Part shown: positions 1,338 through 9,973 of the stretch, in pieces
Position numbering within the stretch: the first letter of the stretch is position 1
How the letters are laid out: the number at the start of each line of letters is the position of its first letter
From: an uncultured Porphyromonadaceae bacterium
Lineage (GTDB): Bacteria > Bacteroidota > Bacteroidia > Bacteroidales > Muribaculaceae
Direction: 5' to 3'
Length of the DNA: 10,156 nt
Assembly: GCA_902494595.1 (NCBI GenBank)
Contig: CABUTY010000022.1
Span: 1-10,156 of the forward strand
Translations under genes and position numbers: made by a program
The notes under the pieces: model-generated
Told to the model about the DNA's origin: nothing
Databases searched by the model: none
The model's input: the letters and a program-made list of their open reading frames with translations, nothing else

Positions 1338-1381
1338 TTAATTTATCTAAACTTTGGATTTGTCAGTTTTTTCTCAAGAAC

Positions 1382-1466
1382 GGAGCCTCGAAAGTTGTAT
1401 GTAAGACTCCTAACAGGTAACACTTATTCCGGGCTATAAGTTTGGTGTCGCCCGGCGGTGACTCCC
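1382..1466 (-). promoter_or_regulatory. Structured pgk 5' leader with competing hairpins (candidate cis-regulator or small RNA)
   Basis: Reading the minus strand, CCGGGC (1455-1450) pairs with GCCCGG (1434-1429) around a 15-nt loop. ACUUAU (1441-1436) pairs with AUAAGU (1427-1422) around an 8-nt loop. Because these pairings interleave, they are either mutually exclusive or form a pseudoknot. GGAGUC (1410-1405) pairs with GGCUCC (1387-1382), and an upstream copy of GGAGUC (1465-1460) can compete for the same partner. The last stem contains a U-G wobble that would be a C-A mismatch in the opposite strand, so the minus-strand RNA is the likely structured one. No known family was recognised. Confidence 0.45.
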
Positions 1467-1480
1467 TACTTTTCGCCACG

Positions 1481-1511
1481 CAAAATTAACAAAAAAATAG
1501 AACCTGGGCAA
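1481..1511 (-). promoter_or_regulatory. Bacteroidota-type promoter for pgk
   Basis: The minus strand carries TAATTTTG (1488-1481), a perfect TAnnTTTG -7 box, with TTG (1511-1509) 20 bp upstream as the -33 element. Transcription should start near 1475, giving a leader of about 140 nt before the pgk ATG. Confidence 0.65.
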
Positions 1512-1571
1512 CATAGGCTCTACACATATTTGATTCTTTTACGTTTCTTTAGAGATAGAAGGAAAATATAG

Positions 1572-2972
1572 ATGGAAGACAAGGATATATTGCGGGGTTT
1601 GTATCGGAATTATTATGGCTCGGATGCCGATGAGATGCAAAAGCTTGCCGGCTCGGGTGGCGACAGGGTGTATTACCGCATGAAGTCATCGGCGGGCGTG
1701 TGTATAGGCACTGTCGGCGATTCATTGTCCGACTGCAGGGCTTTTACAGGGTTGTCACGGGTTTTCCGGCGTCACGGTATAGATGTGCCGGAGGTGTATG
1801 CCGTATCCGATGACGGGCTTCATTATATACAACAGGATCTTGGCGACACGTCGCTGTTGTCGTTGCGCGGCACGGAGGAATGGCGACAAATGGCGACTAT
1901 GGCGATGCAGTCGCTGGCACGCATGCAGACGGTGGATGGCTCCGAATGGAAGGATATTGTGGCTTACAGACCTTTTTCACGCCGACAGGTTTTGTGGGAT
2001 CTGAACTATTTTAAATATGAGTATCTAAAGCCTTTGCGGGTATCTTTCGACGAGGAGCTGCTGGAGGATGATTTCGAGAGATTGGCTTCGCGGCTCACGG
2101 GGGATAGCGCCGGTCCGTGGGGTTTCATGATGCGCGATTGCCAGAGCCGGAATGTGATGGTAAGCGGCGGCAAGCCATGGTGGATTGATTTTCAGGGAGG
2201 ACGGCGCGGCCCTGTGGCGTATGACGTGGTGTCGATGCTCTGGCAGGCTAAAGCGGGTTTGTCGGATAATGAAAAAAAGGAATTGGCTGCTGTATATGCC
2301 GCCGAATATGAGAAAATCACGGGCAATGATGCGGGCCGGTTGCTGGATGCGCTCCCGCTGCTGGCTTTCTTCCGTACGCTTCAGGTGCTGGGCGCTTATG
2401 GATTCCGCGGCCTGGTGGAGAAAAAGGCCCATTTTATAGAGAGCATAGATCCGGCGTTGAGGAATCTGGAAAATCTCTATCAGCGAGCTACGGGAGATGA
2501 TTTGCCCGAGCTCAGGAGAGTCTGCTCCTATGTATGTGCCCATTCACCTTCGCCGGCACCTCACGACGGGCTGCTGGTAAAGGTCTACAGTTTCTCTTAC
2601 AAGAAGGGTTATCCTGCCGACTTTACGGGTAATGGGGGTGGCTTTATGTTCGACTGCCGTGGAATGCACAATCCGGGCCGCTATGATGAGTACAAGCCTC
2701 TCACCGGTCTTGACCTACCGGTGCGTGAATTTCTGGAGGAGCGGGGCGAGGTGCAGAAATTCGTGGCTGAAGCCTTTGATATGGTGTCTCCGTCGGTGGA
2801 GTGTTATCTTCGTCGTGGTTTCTCTGACCTGCAGGTGGGTTTCGGCTGCACGGGAGGACGACACCGGTCGGTTTATTGCGCGGATATGCTGGCTCGCGGG
2901 ATTGCTGCGGCTTTCCCCGATGCAAAGGTTATGGTGATACATCGCGAACAAAACATCACGGAAACATTATGA
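1572..2972 (+). CDS. AmgK/APH-type sugar kinase fused to a RapZ C-terminal domain
   Basis: A two-domain cytosolic protein of 466 residues. Residues 1 to about 320 are an aminoglycoside-phosphotransferase-fold kinase. It has a phosphate-loop-like GSGGDRVYYRM (27-37), hinge YIQQDLGD (85-92), catalytic-loop motif RDCQSRN (188-194, proposed base D189, N194) and metal-binding D206 in WWIDFQGG. Residues about 334-459 match the RapZ C-terminal domain: FDCRGMHNPGR (360-370), PLTGLDLPV (376-384) and GCTGGRHRSVY (425-435). The P-loop N-terminal domain of RapZ is absent. The next gene is a sugar-phosphate nucleotidyltransferase overlapping by ATGA. That pairing matches AmgK-MurU, where AmgK phosphorylates MurNAc or GlcNAc at the anomeric carbon. 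The substrate is therefore inferred from context. In this motif the usual His two residues before the catalytic Asp is Met187. The start is the ATG preceded by an AGAAGGAAAA-like purine stretch. Another sugar or small-molecule kinase remains possible. Confidence 0.85.
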   Translation: MEDKDILRGLYRNYYGSDADEMQKLAGSGGDRVYYRMKSSAGVCIGTVGDSLSDCRAFTGLSRVFRRHGIDVPEVYAVSDDGLHYIQQDLGDTSLLSLRGTEEWRQMATMAMQSLARMQTVDGSEWKDIVAYRPFSRRQVLWDLNYFKYEYLKPLRVSFDEELLEDDFERLASRLTGDSAGPWGFMMRDCQSRNVMVSGGKPWWIDFQGGRRGPVAYDVVSMLWQAKAGLSDNEKKELAAVYAAEYEKITGNDAGRLLDALPLLAFFRTLQVLGAYGFRGLVEKKAHFIESIDPALRNLENLYQRATGDDLPELRRVCSYVCAHSPSPAPHDGLLVKVYSFSYKKGYPADFTGNGGGFMFDCRGMHNPGRYDEYKPLTGLDLPVREFLEERGEVQKFVAEAFDMVSPSVECYLRRGFSDLQVGFGCTGGRHRSVYCADMLARGIAAAFPDAKVMVIHREQNITETL

Positions 2973-3724
2973 ACGCAATGATAATGGCCGCCGGTATGGG
3001 CACCCGGCTGAAGCCGTGGACGCTCAGTCATCCCAAAGCATTGGTGCCTGTGGATGGTGTGCCGGCGTTAGAACGGCTTATTTATAAGTTGAGAGGGGAG
3101 GGGTTTGGTCATGTCACGGTGAACGTGCATCATTTCGCCGGTCAGATTATGGACTATCTCGGCAGTAAGGATTTCGGCATCGACATTGAGGTGAGCGATG
3201 AAAGCGAGGCGCTTCTCGACACGGGAGGAGGAATAGCCAAATGCGGCCGGAGCCTCGTTCCCGACGGCAAGCCGTTGTTGGTGCATAATGCCGATATATT
3301 GAGCAATGCCTGTCTGAAAGATGTTGTGAAGGCGCATGAGGCCGGCGGTACCGATGTGACGCTACTCACCAGCGGACGCGACAGCAGCAGGCGACTGGTG
3401 TTTGATGATGACGGACAATTACGTGGCTGGCATAATATGACCTCTGGGGAGTGGCGTCCTGAGGGATTCATACCGCGTGCCGACATGCATGCGAATGCGT
3501 TCAGCGGCATTTATGTGCTCTCGCCCCGCGCTATAGATGACATAGTGAGGTATGCAGAGGATTCGGGAAAGACAAAATTCTCCGTGGTGGAGTACTTCTT
3601 ATCCTTCCCTAAGGGTATAAGCATAAGGGAGCATTACAATCCGGAGCTTCAGCTGCTCGACATCGGGAAGCCGGAGACGCTTGCGCGAGCCTCAGAGTTT
3701 CTGAGACTCTGTCAACGACGGTAG
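2969..3724 (+). CDS. MurU-like sugar-1-phosphate nucleotidyltransferase
   Basis: A cytosolic NTP transferase of 251 residues with a Rossmann-like GT-A fold. It shows the signature GMGTRLKPWT (9-18), the PKALVPV lysine motif (22-28), DTGGGI (84-89), metal-binding Asp109 in HNADI, FSGIYVLSP (178-186) and a second acidic site at Asp231 in LLDIGKPE. The length matches short MurU/RmlA-like enzymes without an added acyltransferase domain. The start is set at the ATG overlapping the upstream TGA (ATGA), where the family begins (MNAMIMAAG). Further upstream in-frame starts would add residues foreign to the family. Tight coupling to the anomeric kinase suggests that it turns that enzyme's sugar-1-phosphate into an NDP-sugar, most simply MurNAc-1-P plus UTP to UDP-MurNAc. 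The substrate and nucleotide cannot be read from sequence, and GDP-mannose- or glucose-1-P-type activities remain possible. Confidence 0.85.
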   Translation: MNAMIMAAGMGTRLKPWTLSHPKALVPVDGVPALERLIYKLRGEGFGHVTVNVHHFAGQIMDYLGSKDFGIDIEVSDESEALLDTGGGIAKCGRSLVPDGKPLLVHNADILSNACLKDVVKAHEAGGTDVTLLTSGRDSSRRLVFDDDGQLRGWHNMTSGEWRPEGFIPRADMHANAFSGIYVLSPRAIDDIVRYAEDSGKTKFSVVEYFLSFPKGISIREHYNPELQLLDIGKPETLARASEFLRLCQRR

Positions 3725-3897
3725 CGGGTTGTGCGCTGGCGCTGTTTAACCACATTGAACTGGAATATGCAGCCGAGAATCAGGAATACTACCGAGATGC
3801 CTCCTACAATCCATGTGGCTGTGGTACCGGTAAGGAAACACGACACTATCAGCATTACAGAGCCGATGATATAGAATATTATTGACAACGTTTTCAT
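3712..3897 (-). CDS. Small two-helix membrane protein, unknown function
   Basis: A 61-residue product, not recognised as a known family. It has two hydrophobic helices at about residues 5-22 and 28-47, separated by a short TGTTAT turn, and a strongly basic tail (KQRQRTTRYRR). The positive-inside rule would place that tail in the cytoplasm, with both termini inside. The ATG is preceded by AGAGAAGG at a usable distance, which supports translation. Its 3' end overlaps the convergent nucleotidyltransferase gene by 13 bp. It lies downstream of rpsP on the same strand but beyond the rpsP terminator. No convincing -7 box was found, so expression could come from terminator read-through. The hydrophobic pattern and ribosome site make it likelier real than chance, but it could be spurious. 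Confidence 0.5.
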   Translation of the reverse strand: MKTLSIIFYIIGSVMLIVSCFLTGTTATWIVGGISVVFLILGCIFQFNVVKQRQRTTRYRR

Positions 3898-3995
3898 AGC
3901 CTTCTCTTATTATTCGTTTTAATGGAATAACAAAGAATGGGCAGAAAAGTGCGAAAGATATTAGGAAAGCGACCAAAGAGAGAGGTCTAAAAGAC

Positions 3996-4025
3996 AAAAA
4001 AAAGTCCATGCTTTGGGCATGGACT
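3996..4025 (-). terminator. Rho-independent terminator of rpsP
   Basis: A perfect 9-bp stem (4003-4011 with 4017-4025, AGTCCATGC/GCATGGACT) with a 5-nt loop is followed on the minus strand by seven or eight T residues (to 3996). It lies about 20 bp after the rpsP stop. Confidence 0.9.
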
Positions 4026-4045
4026 CAGGAGAATCGTCAGGATGC

Positions 4046-4594
4046 TTACTCAGCGGCAGCCTCAGTGTTGGCATCAGCATTAGCGTTTTCAGCTTCGAGG
4101 GCAGCCTTTGCGGCAGCCTCCTCAGCGGCTAATTTCTCAGCCTTTTTCTTGGCTACTTCCTCGCCTTTGAGGCGGTTTTTCTCCGCTTCGGCGTCGAAGC
4201 GGGCTTTGGCATCCTCAGCTGCCTTGGCCTCGTTCCTGGCCTTGGCTGCCTGAGCCTCTTTGTCGCGGGCTCCCTTCCAGGCATCGAAGCGCTTCTGTGC
4301 CTCGGCCTCGTCGAACGCTCCCTTTCTTACGCCGCCGCGAAGGTGCTTCATAAGCATTACTCCCTCTCTCGACAGAAGTGAACGTACGGTGTCCGTGGGC
4401 TGGGCGCCCTGCTCTACCCAATACAAAGCACGGTCGAAGTCTAAACTTATTGTAGCAGGATTAGTGTTCGGATTATAAGAACCTATCCTCTCAATAAATC
4501 TACCATCTCGTGGTGCCCTGCTATCGGCGACTACAATTGGATAAAAAGCGTAGCCTTTGCGGCCATGTCGCTGTAATCTGATTTTTGTTGCCAT
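4046..4594 (-). CDS. rpsP: 30S ribosomal protein bS16 with long C-terminal extension
   Basis: A small-subunit ribosomal protein that binds 16S rRNA during early 30S assembly. The first 85 or so residues are the bS16 core: [20 protein letters not shown] (3-22), [19 protein letters not shown] (24-42) and a [21 protein letters not shown] segment (58-78). Residues about 95-182 are a low-complexity tail rich in Ala, Lys and Glu with coiled-coil-like spacing. It roughly doubles the family's usual 80-90 residues. Such tails are common in Bacteroidales bS16, so this is a lineage trait rather than a fusion or frameshift. The gene stands alone, without the rimM-trmD-rplS neighbours of Proteobacteria. 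It has its own promoter, short leader hairpin and terminator, and diverges from prfA. Confidence 0.96.
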
Positions 4595-6264: not shown

Positions 6265-8052
6265 TCAGACCTTGATTTTGAGGCCGTCATAGCATGGGTG
6301 CACGTTGGGCGGCAGCTGGTCGTCGAGCCATGCGTGCAGACCCGCTTCATGGTTCATGTGGGTCAGGAAAGCCTGCCGGGGCTTAAGCTCATCAATAAGC
6401 CCGAGAGCCTCGGGAATGGTGAAATGGGCGAAATGCTCCTCATATCGCAAGCCGTTCACTATCAGCGTGTCCAGACCATGGAGCTTCTCCTTTTCCGTTT
6501 CGCTGATGCTTTTGGCGTCCGTGATATATGCAAACCGTCCGATACGGTAGCCGTAGATGGGTTTGGAGCCGTGAAGCACTTCCACAGGCTCGATCTTGAG
6601 GCCATTGATGTAGAACGGGAAATTGTCGACCTCGTGCATGTCGAAAGTCGGCACGCCGGGGTAATGGTGTTCCCGGAAACAATAGTCGAGTTTCTTGCGC
6701 AGTTCCACAGCTACGTCAAGGCGAGTGTAAAGAGGTATGTCGCCGGTCAAGCAGAATGGGCGCAGGTCGTCGATGCCTCCCACGTGGTCATAATGGATAT
6801 GCGTCACGAGCACTGCATCGATATCGAATATTTTATTGTCGAGAGCCTGTTGCCTGAAATCGGGCGAAGGGTCGATGAGAATGTTCATGCCATGGGTCCT
6901 GACGAGAACCGATGCTCTGAGCCGTTTGTCGCGGACATCTTGGGAGCGGCATACTTCGCATTCGCATCCTACTTCAGGAATGCCTTTTGACGTGCCGCTG
7001 CCGAGGACGGTCACCTCAATGGAAGTGTCGATGAAATTGACTTCCGGATAGAGGTCGATAAAGAACTTTCGGCGTACCGCCGAACGGATTTCCTGCACGA
7101 GGTGCAGCACATCATGGGCAGATGCATTGCCGGCGTTCACAATCACGAGGGGCTGTTTCTCCCAAACCAAAGCGCCGCCGTAACGGTGACCTTTCATTCC
7201 GGCATGGTCTATTAGCCATGCGGCGGAAAGCTTCATGCGGCCATCGTCGGTGACATGGGCCGGTATTTCGCAGCCGGAGCGGTGACACAAGCTGTCGTAA
7301 TGGGGTTTGCTGACCACGGGATTCTTGAAGAAGCTGCCAGCGCTCCCGGTCACACGAGGATCGGGCAGTTTGGCGCCCCGTATTCGTCGTACCTCGGCGG
7401 CAATCTCTCTGATGGAAGGGGCGTGGCCCAGACTTACGGCATATTCCCTGACCGGTTTGTATTCAAAATTGACGGCAATATCCGACTGTCGCAGCCTATA
7501 GCATACACGCAGCACGATATAACGCTCTTTGCCTTCATGTTTGAAAAATGAGTCGCGATAACCGAATCTACATTCCTCGGCGGTGAAAGTGCGGGTGTTG
7601 CGGGTAAGGGTGTCGAAGCATTCCACCCTGTATATCACATCCTTGGCCTCCACGCCATAGGCGCCGACGTTCTGCACGGCGGAAGCCCCGACGGTACCCG
7701 GGATGCCCGCCATATTCTCTACGCCGCCATATCCATGGTCGATACACCAGTCGACAAACTCGTCCCATTCCACGCCGGCACCGGCAATCACGTATATGGT
7801 ATCAGTGTCTTTGGAATAGCTCTTGATGTCGGAGATGCGCGAACGGAGCACGAGCCCATTGTATTCGCCGACGAACAGAAGATTGCTTCCCGACCCGATG
7901 TTGAGCACTTCATTATTGATGAATACCTCGGAGCGCGAGATCTTGAGAAGTTCTTCTTTGGAGGCATACTCGGCATACCATCGGGCCGAAGCGGGAATTC
8001 CGAAAGTGGTGAGAGAGGTTATGTCCTTATGTTGTTCAAAAATGGGAGACAT
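6265..8052 (-). CDS. murB: MurB fused to a PhnP-like metallo-beta-lactamase-fold hydrolase
   Basis: A single uninterrupted 595-residue frame. Residues 1-341 are a type I MurB, the flavoenzyme that reduces UDP-GlcNAc-enolpyruvate to UDP-MurNAc with NADPH. Visible FAD-site motifs are NIGSGSNLLF (51-60) and NMAGIPGTVGASAVQNVGAYG's core (113-131). Others are FGYRDSFF (163-170), the catalytic Ser240 in GSAGSFFKNP, and Glu337 in PEVNFI, which normally ends MurB. Residue 345 onward begins a complete MBL-fold domain, VTVLGSGTSKG (347-357). It has a PhnP-type Cys cluster (C363, C365, C368), the metal motif HIHYDH (418-423), later ligands His494, Asp512 and His565, and an intact C-terminus. All key residues of both enzymes are kept. 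The MBL substrate is unknown; PhnP relatives cleave cyclic ribose phosphates or nucleic-acid ends. The gene follows the lipoprotein gene by 5 bp, so the two are probably co-transcribed. Confidence 0.93.
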   Translation of the reverse strand: MSPIFEQHKDITSLTTFGIPASARWYAEYASKEELLKISRSEVFINNEVLNIGSGSNLLFVGEYNGLVLRSRISDIKSYSKDTDTIYVIAGAGVEWDEFVDWCIDHGYGGVENMAGIPGTVGASAVQNVGAYGVEAKDVIYRVECFDTLTRNTRTFTAEECRFGYRDSFFKHEGKERYIVLRVCYRLRQSDIAVNFEYKPVREYAVSLGHAPSIREIAAEVRRIRGAKLPDPRVTGSAGSFFKNPVVSKPHYDSLCHRSGCEIPAHVTDDGRMKLSAAWLIDHAGMKGHRYGGALVWEKQPLVIVNAGNASAHDVLHLVQEIRSAVRRKFFIDLYPEVNFIDTSIEVTVLGSGTSKGIPEVGCECEVCRSQDVRDKRLRASVLVRTHGMNILIDPSPDFRQQALDNKIFDIDAVLVTHIHYDHVGGIDDLRPFCLTGDIPLYTRLDVAVELRKKLDYCFREHHYPGVPTFDMHEVDNFPFYINGLKIEPVEVLHGSKPIYGYRIGRFAYITDAKSISETEKEKLHGLDTLIVNGLRYEEHFAHFTIPEALGLIDELKPRQAFLTHMNHEAGLHAWLDDQLPPNVHPCYDGLKIKV

Positions 8053-9295: not shown

Positions 9296-9973
9296 ATGCA
9301 GACGATGTATGAAAAGCTGATGACGTTGACGGTGTTCAAGGGGATAGGCGCCGAGCAGCTGTCGTCGATATTGGAAAAGACGCATCTGGAGTTCGCCTCT
9401 CATGATGCCGGCGAATATATAAAGGAGTCCGGGGAGGAATGCCGGGAAGTCACGAGTGTGCTGTCGGGGGAGATAGAGACAGAGACATCGATAGCCGGCG
9501 GCCGTTCGTTGATGGTATGCCGTTATGGGTCAGGCAAGGTGTTCGGCCTCGAATATCTTTTCGGTATGGAGAACAAATATGGCAGTTCATTGCGGGCCGT
9601 GACGCGCACGGGCACAATGAGCTTTTCCAAGCAGCAGTATATGCAGATGCTCAGCGGCAATTCCATATGCATGATTAATTTCCTTAACTATCTCAGTTTC
9701 AAGTCGCAGCGTATCTCGCAGTACGTGGATGCCATATGTTCCGACGATTTTTCAAGGCGGTTGGCGGCGATAGTCACGCTGATGAGCGACCGCGATTGCG
9801 ACGAGATAAGGATAGAGAATATACGGGGCGTTTCCGACAGCACATGTCAGGCACATACATATGAAGAGGTATTGAAGAGATATGAGGATGCCAGCATACT
9901 GCATATGGAAGGAGATACCCTCATCATACCGTCGCGTAACGATTTCCTGACCTTTTGTTCTGAACCCTGTTGA
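9296..9973 (+). CDS. Crp/Fnr-like protein with atypical DNA-binding half
   Basis: A 225-residue cytosolic protein. Residues about 10-125 read as a cyclic-nucleotide-binding-type beta-barrel (FKGIGAEQLSSIL at 14-26, SVLSGEIETE at 54-63, KVFGLEYLFG at 81-90). The family's phosphate-cassette arginine context is not evident, so cAMP binding is doubtful. A dimer-helix-like segment follows (about 118-146). The C-terminal part keeps the end of a winged helix (YEEVLKRYEDASILHMEGDTLIIPSRNDFL, within 189-218). The usual first helix and turn are replaced by IENIRGVSDSTCQAHT (173-188), which does not read as a classic LA-x-x-LG turn. It may be a divergent regulator or a ligand sensor with weakened DNA binding. 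An AAGGAGGAG stretch lies about 16-25 bases before the ATG, further than usual. The stop is followed closely by a promoter for the next transcript. Confidence 0.75.
   Translation: MQTMYEKLMTLTVFKGIGAEQLSSILEKTHLEFASHDAGEYIKESGEECREVTSVLSGEIETETSIAGGRSLMVCRYGSGKVFGLEYLFGMENKYGSSLRAVTRTGTMSFSKQQYMQMLSGNSICMINFLNYLSFKSQRISQYVDAICSDDFSRRLAAIVTLMSDRDCDEIRIENIRGVSDSTCQAHTYEEVLKRYEDASILHMEGDTLIIPSRNDFLTFCSEPC

Follow-up and report, generated by a model that had tools for sequence, protein, structure and literature searches.

What is the sugar-phosphate-sensing half of RapZ doing on a kinase that resembles an enzyme of cell-wall recycling? The question is raised by a 10,156-nucleotide stretch of DNA (contig CABUTY010000022.1, assembly GCA_902494595.1; the window, hereafter) from an uncultured Porphyromonadaceae bacterium placed by GTDB in the Muribaculaceae, in which an APH-fold, anomeric-sugar-kinase-like domain shares a polypeptide with a RapZ C-terminal domain (RapZ_C), and a gene for a MurU-like nucleotidyltransferase overlaps the end of the fusion gene. 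The locus is genuine, a conserved and widely distributed variation on the AmgK–MurU-type gene pair in which a domain of the RapZ sensor type is a third, separable element; its function we infer. Our preferred reading, to which we give an even chance from the comparison of sequences, is that of a module with which Bacteroidota would salvage amino sugars of the cell wall, and whose RapZ_C would bind an amino-sugar phosphate to set kinase activity. Acting on the anomeric carbon, the kinase part would phosphorylate N-acetylmuramic acid (MurNAc), perhaps also N-acetylglucosamine (GlcNAc); from the sugar 1-phosphate, the MurU-like enzyme of the overlapping gene would make uridine diphosphate (UDP)-MurNAc, perhaps also UDP-GlcNAc, bypassing MurA and MurB. 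As the third element, RapZ_C would most likely bind glucosamine 6-phosphate (GlcN6P) or the 6-phosphates of GlcNAc or MurNAc (GlcNAc-6P, MurNAc-6P) and set the kinase where wall synthesis and sugar breakdown part ways, with control exerted by direct protein contact and not via RNA.

Architecture, recurrence and gene order

To what families does the pair belong? A preliminary description of this DNA had proposed the fusion of an APH kinase with RapZ_C and the ATGA overlap with a nucleotidyltransferase, and open reading frames and Pfam searches confirm both the arrangement and its coordinates (Table 1): the fusion gene matches PF01636 at 54.3 bits (cut-off 23.2) and PF22740 at 107.4 bits (cut-off 27), and the transferase matches PF00483 at 51.5 bits (cut-off 21.2). 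The RapZ model NF003828 covers the fusion only C-terminally (91.4 bits, cut-off 244; profile positions 157–277 of 278), and with APH as its N-terminal part the protein is not a full-length RapZ. MurU NF045761 is the top NCBIfam match of the transferase (88.8 bits, best of 30 families), and AmgK NF045759 matches the N-terminal part of the fusion at 43.9 bits; in three relatives AmgK is again the best match of the kinase (55.2, 66.5 and 74 bits) and MurU that of the transferase (146.6, 141.4 and 115.8 bits). The PDB sequence nearest to the window transferase is 4y7t (62.2 bits), titled “Nucleotidyl transferase”, which we take to be Pseudomonas MurU; 8hhd, labelled N-acetylmuramate alpha-1-phosphate uridylyltransferase, is likewise matched. 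The RDxQxRN and IDxQ columns of the kinase are invariant across 12 aligned rows and the domain conforms to the APH fold; for the motifs RDCQSRN and IDFQGG of the window we assume the catalytic roles of the APH family.

Is the arrangement peculiar to this genome? Among relatives of the fusion protein (the best 120 of 8,000 candidates scored, with domains from a precomputed Pfam column), PF22740 occurs in 120 of 120 and PF01636 in 118; one protein among the 120 matches listed bears a Muribaculaceae label. At the DNA level, a scan of genome contigs with peptide patterns and an alignment of the fused family confirmed 590 stretches, of which the 80 best come mostly from Bacteroidales, with Bacteroides, Phocaeicola, Parabacteroides, Mediterranea, Alloprevotella, Leyella, Paludibacter and Tannerella among the labels, just as the preliminary description had anticipated for this order; one record is titled Paenibacillus, and the fusions scoring highest against that of the window belong to two Muribaculaceae metagenome-assembled genomes (L001, L002). 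That all 80 loci are fused is not an independent count, because the search patterns came from the fused family. In 62 of the 80 the transferase gene comes next downstream, on the same strand, and 24 of these 62 have the same 4-base overlap as the window; the transferase is fused in two, and two contigs end too early. Triple fusions of kinase, RapZ_C and transferase are represented by P0042 (714 amino acids), L060:7920-10262 and L066:8016-10298. Together with AmgK and MurU as the best NCBIfam matches, the downstream position of the transferase argues for a salvage module. Besides the kinase and transferase, no gene family occurs in more than nine of the loci compared, so a conserved wider neighbourhood was rejected; ten annotated recurring neighbours (RNA methyltransferase, glutamate dehydrogenase, Clp, RecQ and others) are foreign to wall recycling.

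The domain is also encoded on its own. An even sample of 238 Bacteroidota genomes contains PF22740 in 27, in five of which the open frame is only 134–149 amino acids long; a free RapZ_C protein within a three-gene cluster had been overlooked in the preliminary description. In four of the five stand-alone cases the order is kinase (338–343 amino acids), RapZ_C, transferase (235–237 amino acids), all on one strand; in the fifth, G197, each of RapZ_C, the kinase and the best transferase match is on a contig of its own. The order of the four, with RapZ_C as a separate gene between kinase and transferase, is that of the loci L091 and L102–L104; short relatives of the L103 domain number 2,380 of 2,384 candidates at E <= 0.001, the named ones among the best 120 being nearly all Chryseobacterium or Kaistella. 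This Chryseobacterium/Kaistella form shares the GNGGG loop of the window domain and differs in being a separate polypeptide, annotated as RNase adapter RapZ, ATP-binding protein or UPF0042. At L091, the boundary between kinase and RapZ_C is a lone in-frame TAA-TTT-ATG junction, a split possibly due to a recent mutation or a sequence error. In trees, L091 and L102–L104 group at separate places among the fused sequences and G197 stands apart from both, with modest support at several nodes (the count is 105 fused and 4 split, including L087, the same locus as L020, which was omitted from the trees); given these different positions, RapZ_C may have separated from the kinase more than once.

A separate observation concerns Streptomyces plasmids, which encode small stand-alone RapZ_C proteins of 131–160 amino acids (L111:6001-6483, L112:3986-4381 and L113:4328-4765); no match to the kinase or transferase was found in the 8–12 kb around them.

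How closely do kinase and domain travel together? A search of the 238 genomes with the kinase domain gives matches in 79 at E <= 1e-15 and in 28 at E <= 3.5e-74; the latter are all 27 RapZ_C genomes plus G026, and the remaining 51 match more weakly (E 6e-40 to 3e-20) and are without RapZ_C. The presence of the kinase in 27 of 27 RapZ_C genomes, with the conserved order in four of the five stand-alone cases, argues further for a salvage module. At the G026 locus (C44, L119:6090-7801), the gene following the kinase–transferase pair encodes a TonB_C/MORN protein.

Genomes without MurA and MurB

Which UDP-sugar would such a module supply? Among 59 Tannerellaceae genomes, MurA is found in 55 and RapZ_C in 49. 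G285 (3.3 Mb) and G288 (2.8 Mb) are without detectable MurA and MurB, yet each retains a single fusion whose motifs are all intact and which a transferase adjoins downstream, and no second kinase of the fusion type was found in either at E <= 0.001; in G285 the adjoining transferase is the only transferase match, and in G288 contig ends truncate it. G259 (1.6 Mb) and G261 (1.9 Mb), possibly incomplete, are also without both enzymes, and RapZ_C is present in G259, not in G261. The retention of a sole fusion by G285 and G288 in the absence of MurA and MurB favours a putative role of the pair in MurNAc-to-UDP-MurNAc salvage. Tannerella forsythia, described as a MurNAc auxotroph without glmS, glmU, murA and murB, needs a further MurNAc-to-wall route, uncharacterised at the time (PMC5790795), and a later paper names AmgK and MurU for this species, on the authority of an earlier work (its reference 21), and states that AnmK is not predicted (PMC7670621). 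This need and the pair kept in the two genomes also argue for a salvage module. A simple part in GlmS control, which the preliminary description had brought up from the E. coli precedent, is weakened, since GlmS is absent above the cut-off in all four Tannerellaceae tested (G285, G288, G011 and G301) and the domain is kept. Architecture, gene order, conservation, co-occurrence and persistence without detectable MurA and MurB are established.

The window itself encodes, at 6265-8052 on the minus strand, a 595-amino-acid open reading frame joining MurB (FAD_binding_4, MurB_C) to a metallo-beta-lactamase-fold domain, PF12706 (residues 390–566), for which tblastn found no relatives in the other loci compared; with a MurB domain encoded here, the host is presumably able to make UDP-MurNAc de novo.

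The RapZ_C pocket and its possible roles

What, then, might the domain sense? Substrates, ligand and direction of control are matters that we infer, and for the ligand the starting point is E. coli RapZ, whose C-terminal domain alone is reported to bind GlcN6P with a dissociation constant of 10 nM (PMC7073468) and in whose pocket, made up of H190, T248, G249, H252 and R253 and adjacent to C247, malonate or sulfate is bound (PMC5737377, PMC9841335). In an alignment of 73 rows (the window and 72 of the 80 loci, with L012, L016, L021, L026, L040, L054, L060 and L066 left out), the equivalents of C247, T248, G249, H252 and R253 are each invariant in 73 of 73, as are those of F181, D182 and R184. 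Five of six pocket residues kept throughout, along with GlcN6P binding by the E. coli domain, argue for ligand binding by RapZ_C. The domain passes the Pfam cut-off and has the RapZ fold, in a model built with the 73 sequences at a mean predicted local distance difference test (pLDDT) of 93.8, the single-sequence version being poor (56). A GNGGG loop, with its last three glycines in 73 of 73, is inserted ahead of F-D-x-R; it is absent from five full-length RapZ proteins (E. coli, two alphaproteobacteria, one actinobacterium and one clostridium) and from the three Streptomyces plasmid copies.

Several findings weigh against the salvage reading. The sixth pocket residue, H190, is replaced by Gly in 73 of 73 rows, followed in every row by Lys or Arg, and some other RapZ_C sequences have Tyr or Phe at this position; the replacement and the GNGGG insertion suggest as ligand a phosphorylated sugar that is related yet distinct, perhaps of larger size. 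The equivalog cut-offs, 550 bits for AmgK and 250 for MurU, lie far above the window scores and are missed by the three relatives too, so that the likeness to AmgK and MurU proposed earlier holds at the level of best family match and fails at that of equivalog. Among the 80 loci, the transferase lies elsewhere in the locus in 4 and was not found in 10 (within 3.7–8 kb of downstream flank). In G026 the kinase and transferase are adjacent and no RapZ_C was found in the genome, which, if this assembly is complete, means that the enzymes do not require the domain. In G288 a further transferase match, more distantly related (31% identity), is present, and the annotated neighbours of the G285 fusion, an M49 peptidase and a FecR protein, are not of wall recycling. 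Nor is AnmK enriched alongside RapZ_C, being present in 18 of the 27 RapZ_C genomes vs 164 of 238 overall; a replacement of MupP, the MurNAc-6P phosphatase of Pseudomonas, by association with AnmK was rejected on this count.

First among the alternatives, RapZ_C may be a passive dimerisation or folding module, a historical leftover, which we think unlikely even if it survives better than the others. The E. coli domain is reported to dimerise alone (PMC5737377), the F181, D182 and R184 equivalents are invariant in the 73 rows, and G026 lacks the domain altogether; a passive role sits poorly, however, with five invariant pocket residues and with split forms that retain RapZ_C as a gene of its own next to its partners.

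Second, RapZ_C might be a CX5R cysteine phosphatase that frees a sugar, such as MurNAc from MurNAc-6P, for the kinase, and would then perform the step of MupP and hold the same place in the pathway; we find this doubtful. MupP is a HAD-type enzyme. C-x2-G-x2-R-S is the signature loop of cysteine phosphatases, and the motif GCTGG(K/R/Q)HRS has this pattern, which recurs in all 240 relatives listed (120 fusion and 120 short) and in alphaproteobacterial, actinobacterial and clostridial RapZ; among the Streptomyces plasmid copies, one has CVGGRHRS and another a degenerate CAGGRRRA. In the predicted model a strand ends at the Cys and a helix begins at the Arg, and a free-standing third gene of the cluster would suit an enzyme. 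In E. coli, C247A and C247S each abolish RapZ activity, and the authors remark that the -SH group may serve a specialised catalytic function (PMC9841335). Against all this, hhalign of the RapZ_C profile with a profile of 36 dual-specificity-type phosphatases returned a probability of 0.10 of 100, a score below that of either control (a reversed sequence or an unrelated kinase profile), and when the PDB was searched by hmmsearch with the RapZ_C alignment, RapZ alone was significant and the 11 matches at E <= 10 included no phosphatase; homology to the protein tyrosine phosphatase (PTP) family was rejected on these two results. A fold search with the RapZ_C model gave weak matches to phosphatases, and the missing AnmK link also speaks against the proposal. 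We know of no phosphatase activity of RapZ_C. Neither “phosphatase” nor “tyrosine” occurs as a word in the main texts of PMC5737377 and PMC9841335 consulted, the titles and abstract openings of the literature found contain no phosphatase proposal for RapZ/YvcJ, and no mention of RapZ was found in the papers listed for cysteine phosphate-binding CX5R loops. In a narrower form, RapZ_C would be a cysteine-dependent amino-sugar-phosphate phosphatase whose CX5R chemistry is independent of the PTP family, and this we regard with greater doubt. If it were true, kinase, RapZ_C and transferase would make up a complete line from MurNAc-6P to UDP-MurNAc, and E. coli RapZ would be a re-used pathway enzyme, its essential C247 thiol a relic of catalysis or still performing it.

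Third, the main product might be UDP-GlcNAc instead of UDP-MurNAc, with GlcNAc converted to GlcNAc-1-phosphate and then uridylylated in replacement of GlmU, a prospect that we hold to be slim. GlmU is absent above the cut-off in five of five genomes (the four Tannerellaceae tested for GlmS and G001, Bacteroides timonensis), and in four of the five it is the transferase beside the fusion that best matches the uridylyltransferase half of GlmU, so that the pair may also serve UDP-GlcNAc; NCBIfam, moreover, calls AmgK a MurNAc/GlcNAc kinase. The window transferase, however, scores only 33.1 bits against the GlmU-type model TIGR01173 (compare its MurU score above), the RapZ_C module, in just 27 of 238 genomes, is not the general GlmU of the phylum, and the GlmU evidence comes from five genomes only.

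Finally, might the fusion bind RNA and regulate through it, as E. coli RapZ does? Of seven RNA-path residues of that protein (taken from PMC9841335), the window keeps four as basic (K170 as Lys, R184 as Arg, R196 as Lys and K251 as Arg) and has Glu, Glu and Phe for K194, R211 and R238. Over the 73 rows, Lys or Arg stands at the K170 position in 70, R184 in 73, R196 in 54, R238 in none and K251 in 7, with K194 and R211 variable; the K251 equivalent is Gln in 66 of 73 and Arg in 80 of 120 listed close relatives. The basic tail, K270, K281, R282 and K283, reads Ala, Ile, Thr and Glu in the window and mostly Val/Ile, Ile and Glu over the 73 rows, the last position being mixed; such a tail is described as restricted to Enterobacteriaceae (PMC7073468), and GlmY and GlmZ gave no match within the window, the genomes not having been searched for them. 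With the tail and three path residues lost, RapZ-type RNA binding by the fusion looks unlikely, the RNA binding once suggested for the kinase was not upheld, and an RNA-regulating enzyme is, four basic path residues notwithstanding, by far the least credible account.

Relation to known systems and meaning

Set beside the AmgK–MurU pair of Pseudomonas, the locus is alike in joining an anomeric-kinase-like to a uridylyltransferase-like gene with those families as top matches, and unlike in its scores far under the equivalog cut-offs and in the extra RapZ_C, either fused to the kinase or encoded between both genes. Set beside E. coli RapZ, it has an APH kinase in place of the missing N-terminal domain, Gly for H190, the GNGGG insertion and no basic RNA-binding tail. 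We found no paper naming both AmgK and RapZ, in a search short on subscription journals, so an earlier description is possible. The features of the pair are collected in Table 1.

Table 1. Positions of the fusion gene, its domains and motifs, and the transferase gene within the window
Feature	Position	Strand	Remarks
Fusion gene, APH-fold anomeric-sugar-kinase-like domain + RapZ C-terminal domain	1572..2972	+	466 amino acids; ATG start
Kinase domain (Pfam APH, PF01636), residues 31-248	1662..2315	+	contains RDCQSRN and IDFQGG motifs
RapZ C-terminal domain (RapZ_C, PF22740), residues 335-460	2574..2951	+	Pfam
GNGGG loop, residues 353-357	2628..2642	+	alignment; absent from E. coli and other non-Bacteroidota RapZ_C compared
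GCTGGRHRS motif (C-x5-R-S), residues 425-433	2844..2870	+	E. coli RapZ 246-254, part of phosphate/malonate pocket
ATGA start/stop overlap, kinase gene and transferase gene	2969..2972	+	open reading frame coordinates
MurU-like sugar-1-phosphate nucleotidyltransferase, 251 amino acids	2969..3724	+	PF00483, NCBIfam

The transferase frame is open already from a TTG at 2876; the ATG at 2969 yields the protein tabulated. A pattern scan of 1340-4050, not used here, gave 3 promoter-like sites vs 2.4 expected by chance and 5 terminator-like sites vs 2.6. Elsewhere in the window, the open reading frame at 9296-9973 on the plus strand has a cyclic-nucleotide (cNMP)-binding domain as its sole Pfam match at E <= 0.001, with no match to a DNA-binding domain.

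On the practical side, an NCBI record gives at least one fusion the name “RNase adapter RapZ”, which hides its kinase domain: WP_005858754.1 of Parabacteroides distasonis (L118:2963-4393, a plasmid-collection record), followed by a gene annotated “nucleotidyltransferase family protein”. For the biology of the group, the module offers two specific genes for the route from MurNAc to the wall in Tannerella-type bacteria without MurA and MurB, a route so far assigned, in the parts of the literature available, by expectation only. For the RapZ family, the sugar-phosphate-sensing half sits here directly on an enzyme, suggesting that RapZ had an amino-sugar function before its RNA role in enteric bacteria was added late; that older function is one that the Chryseobacterium-type free RapZ_C and free kinase make testable in a simple purified system.

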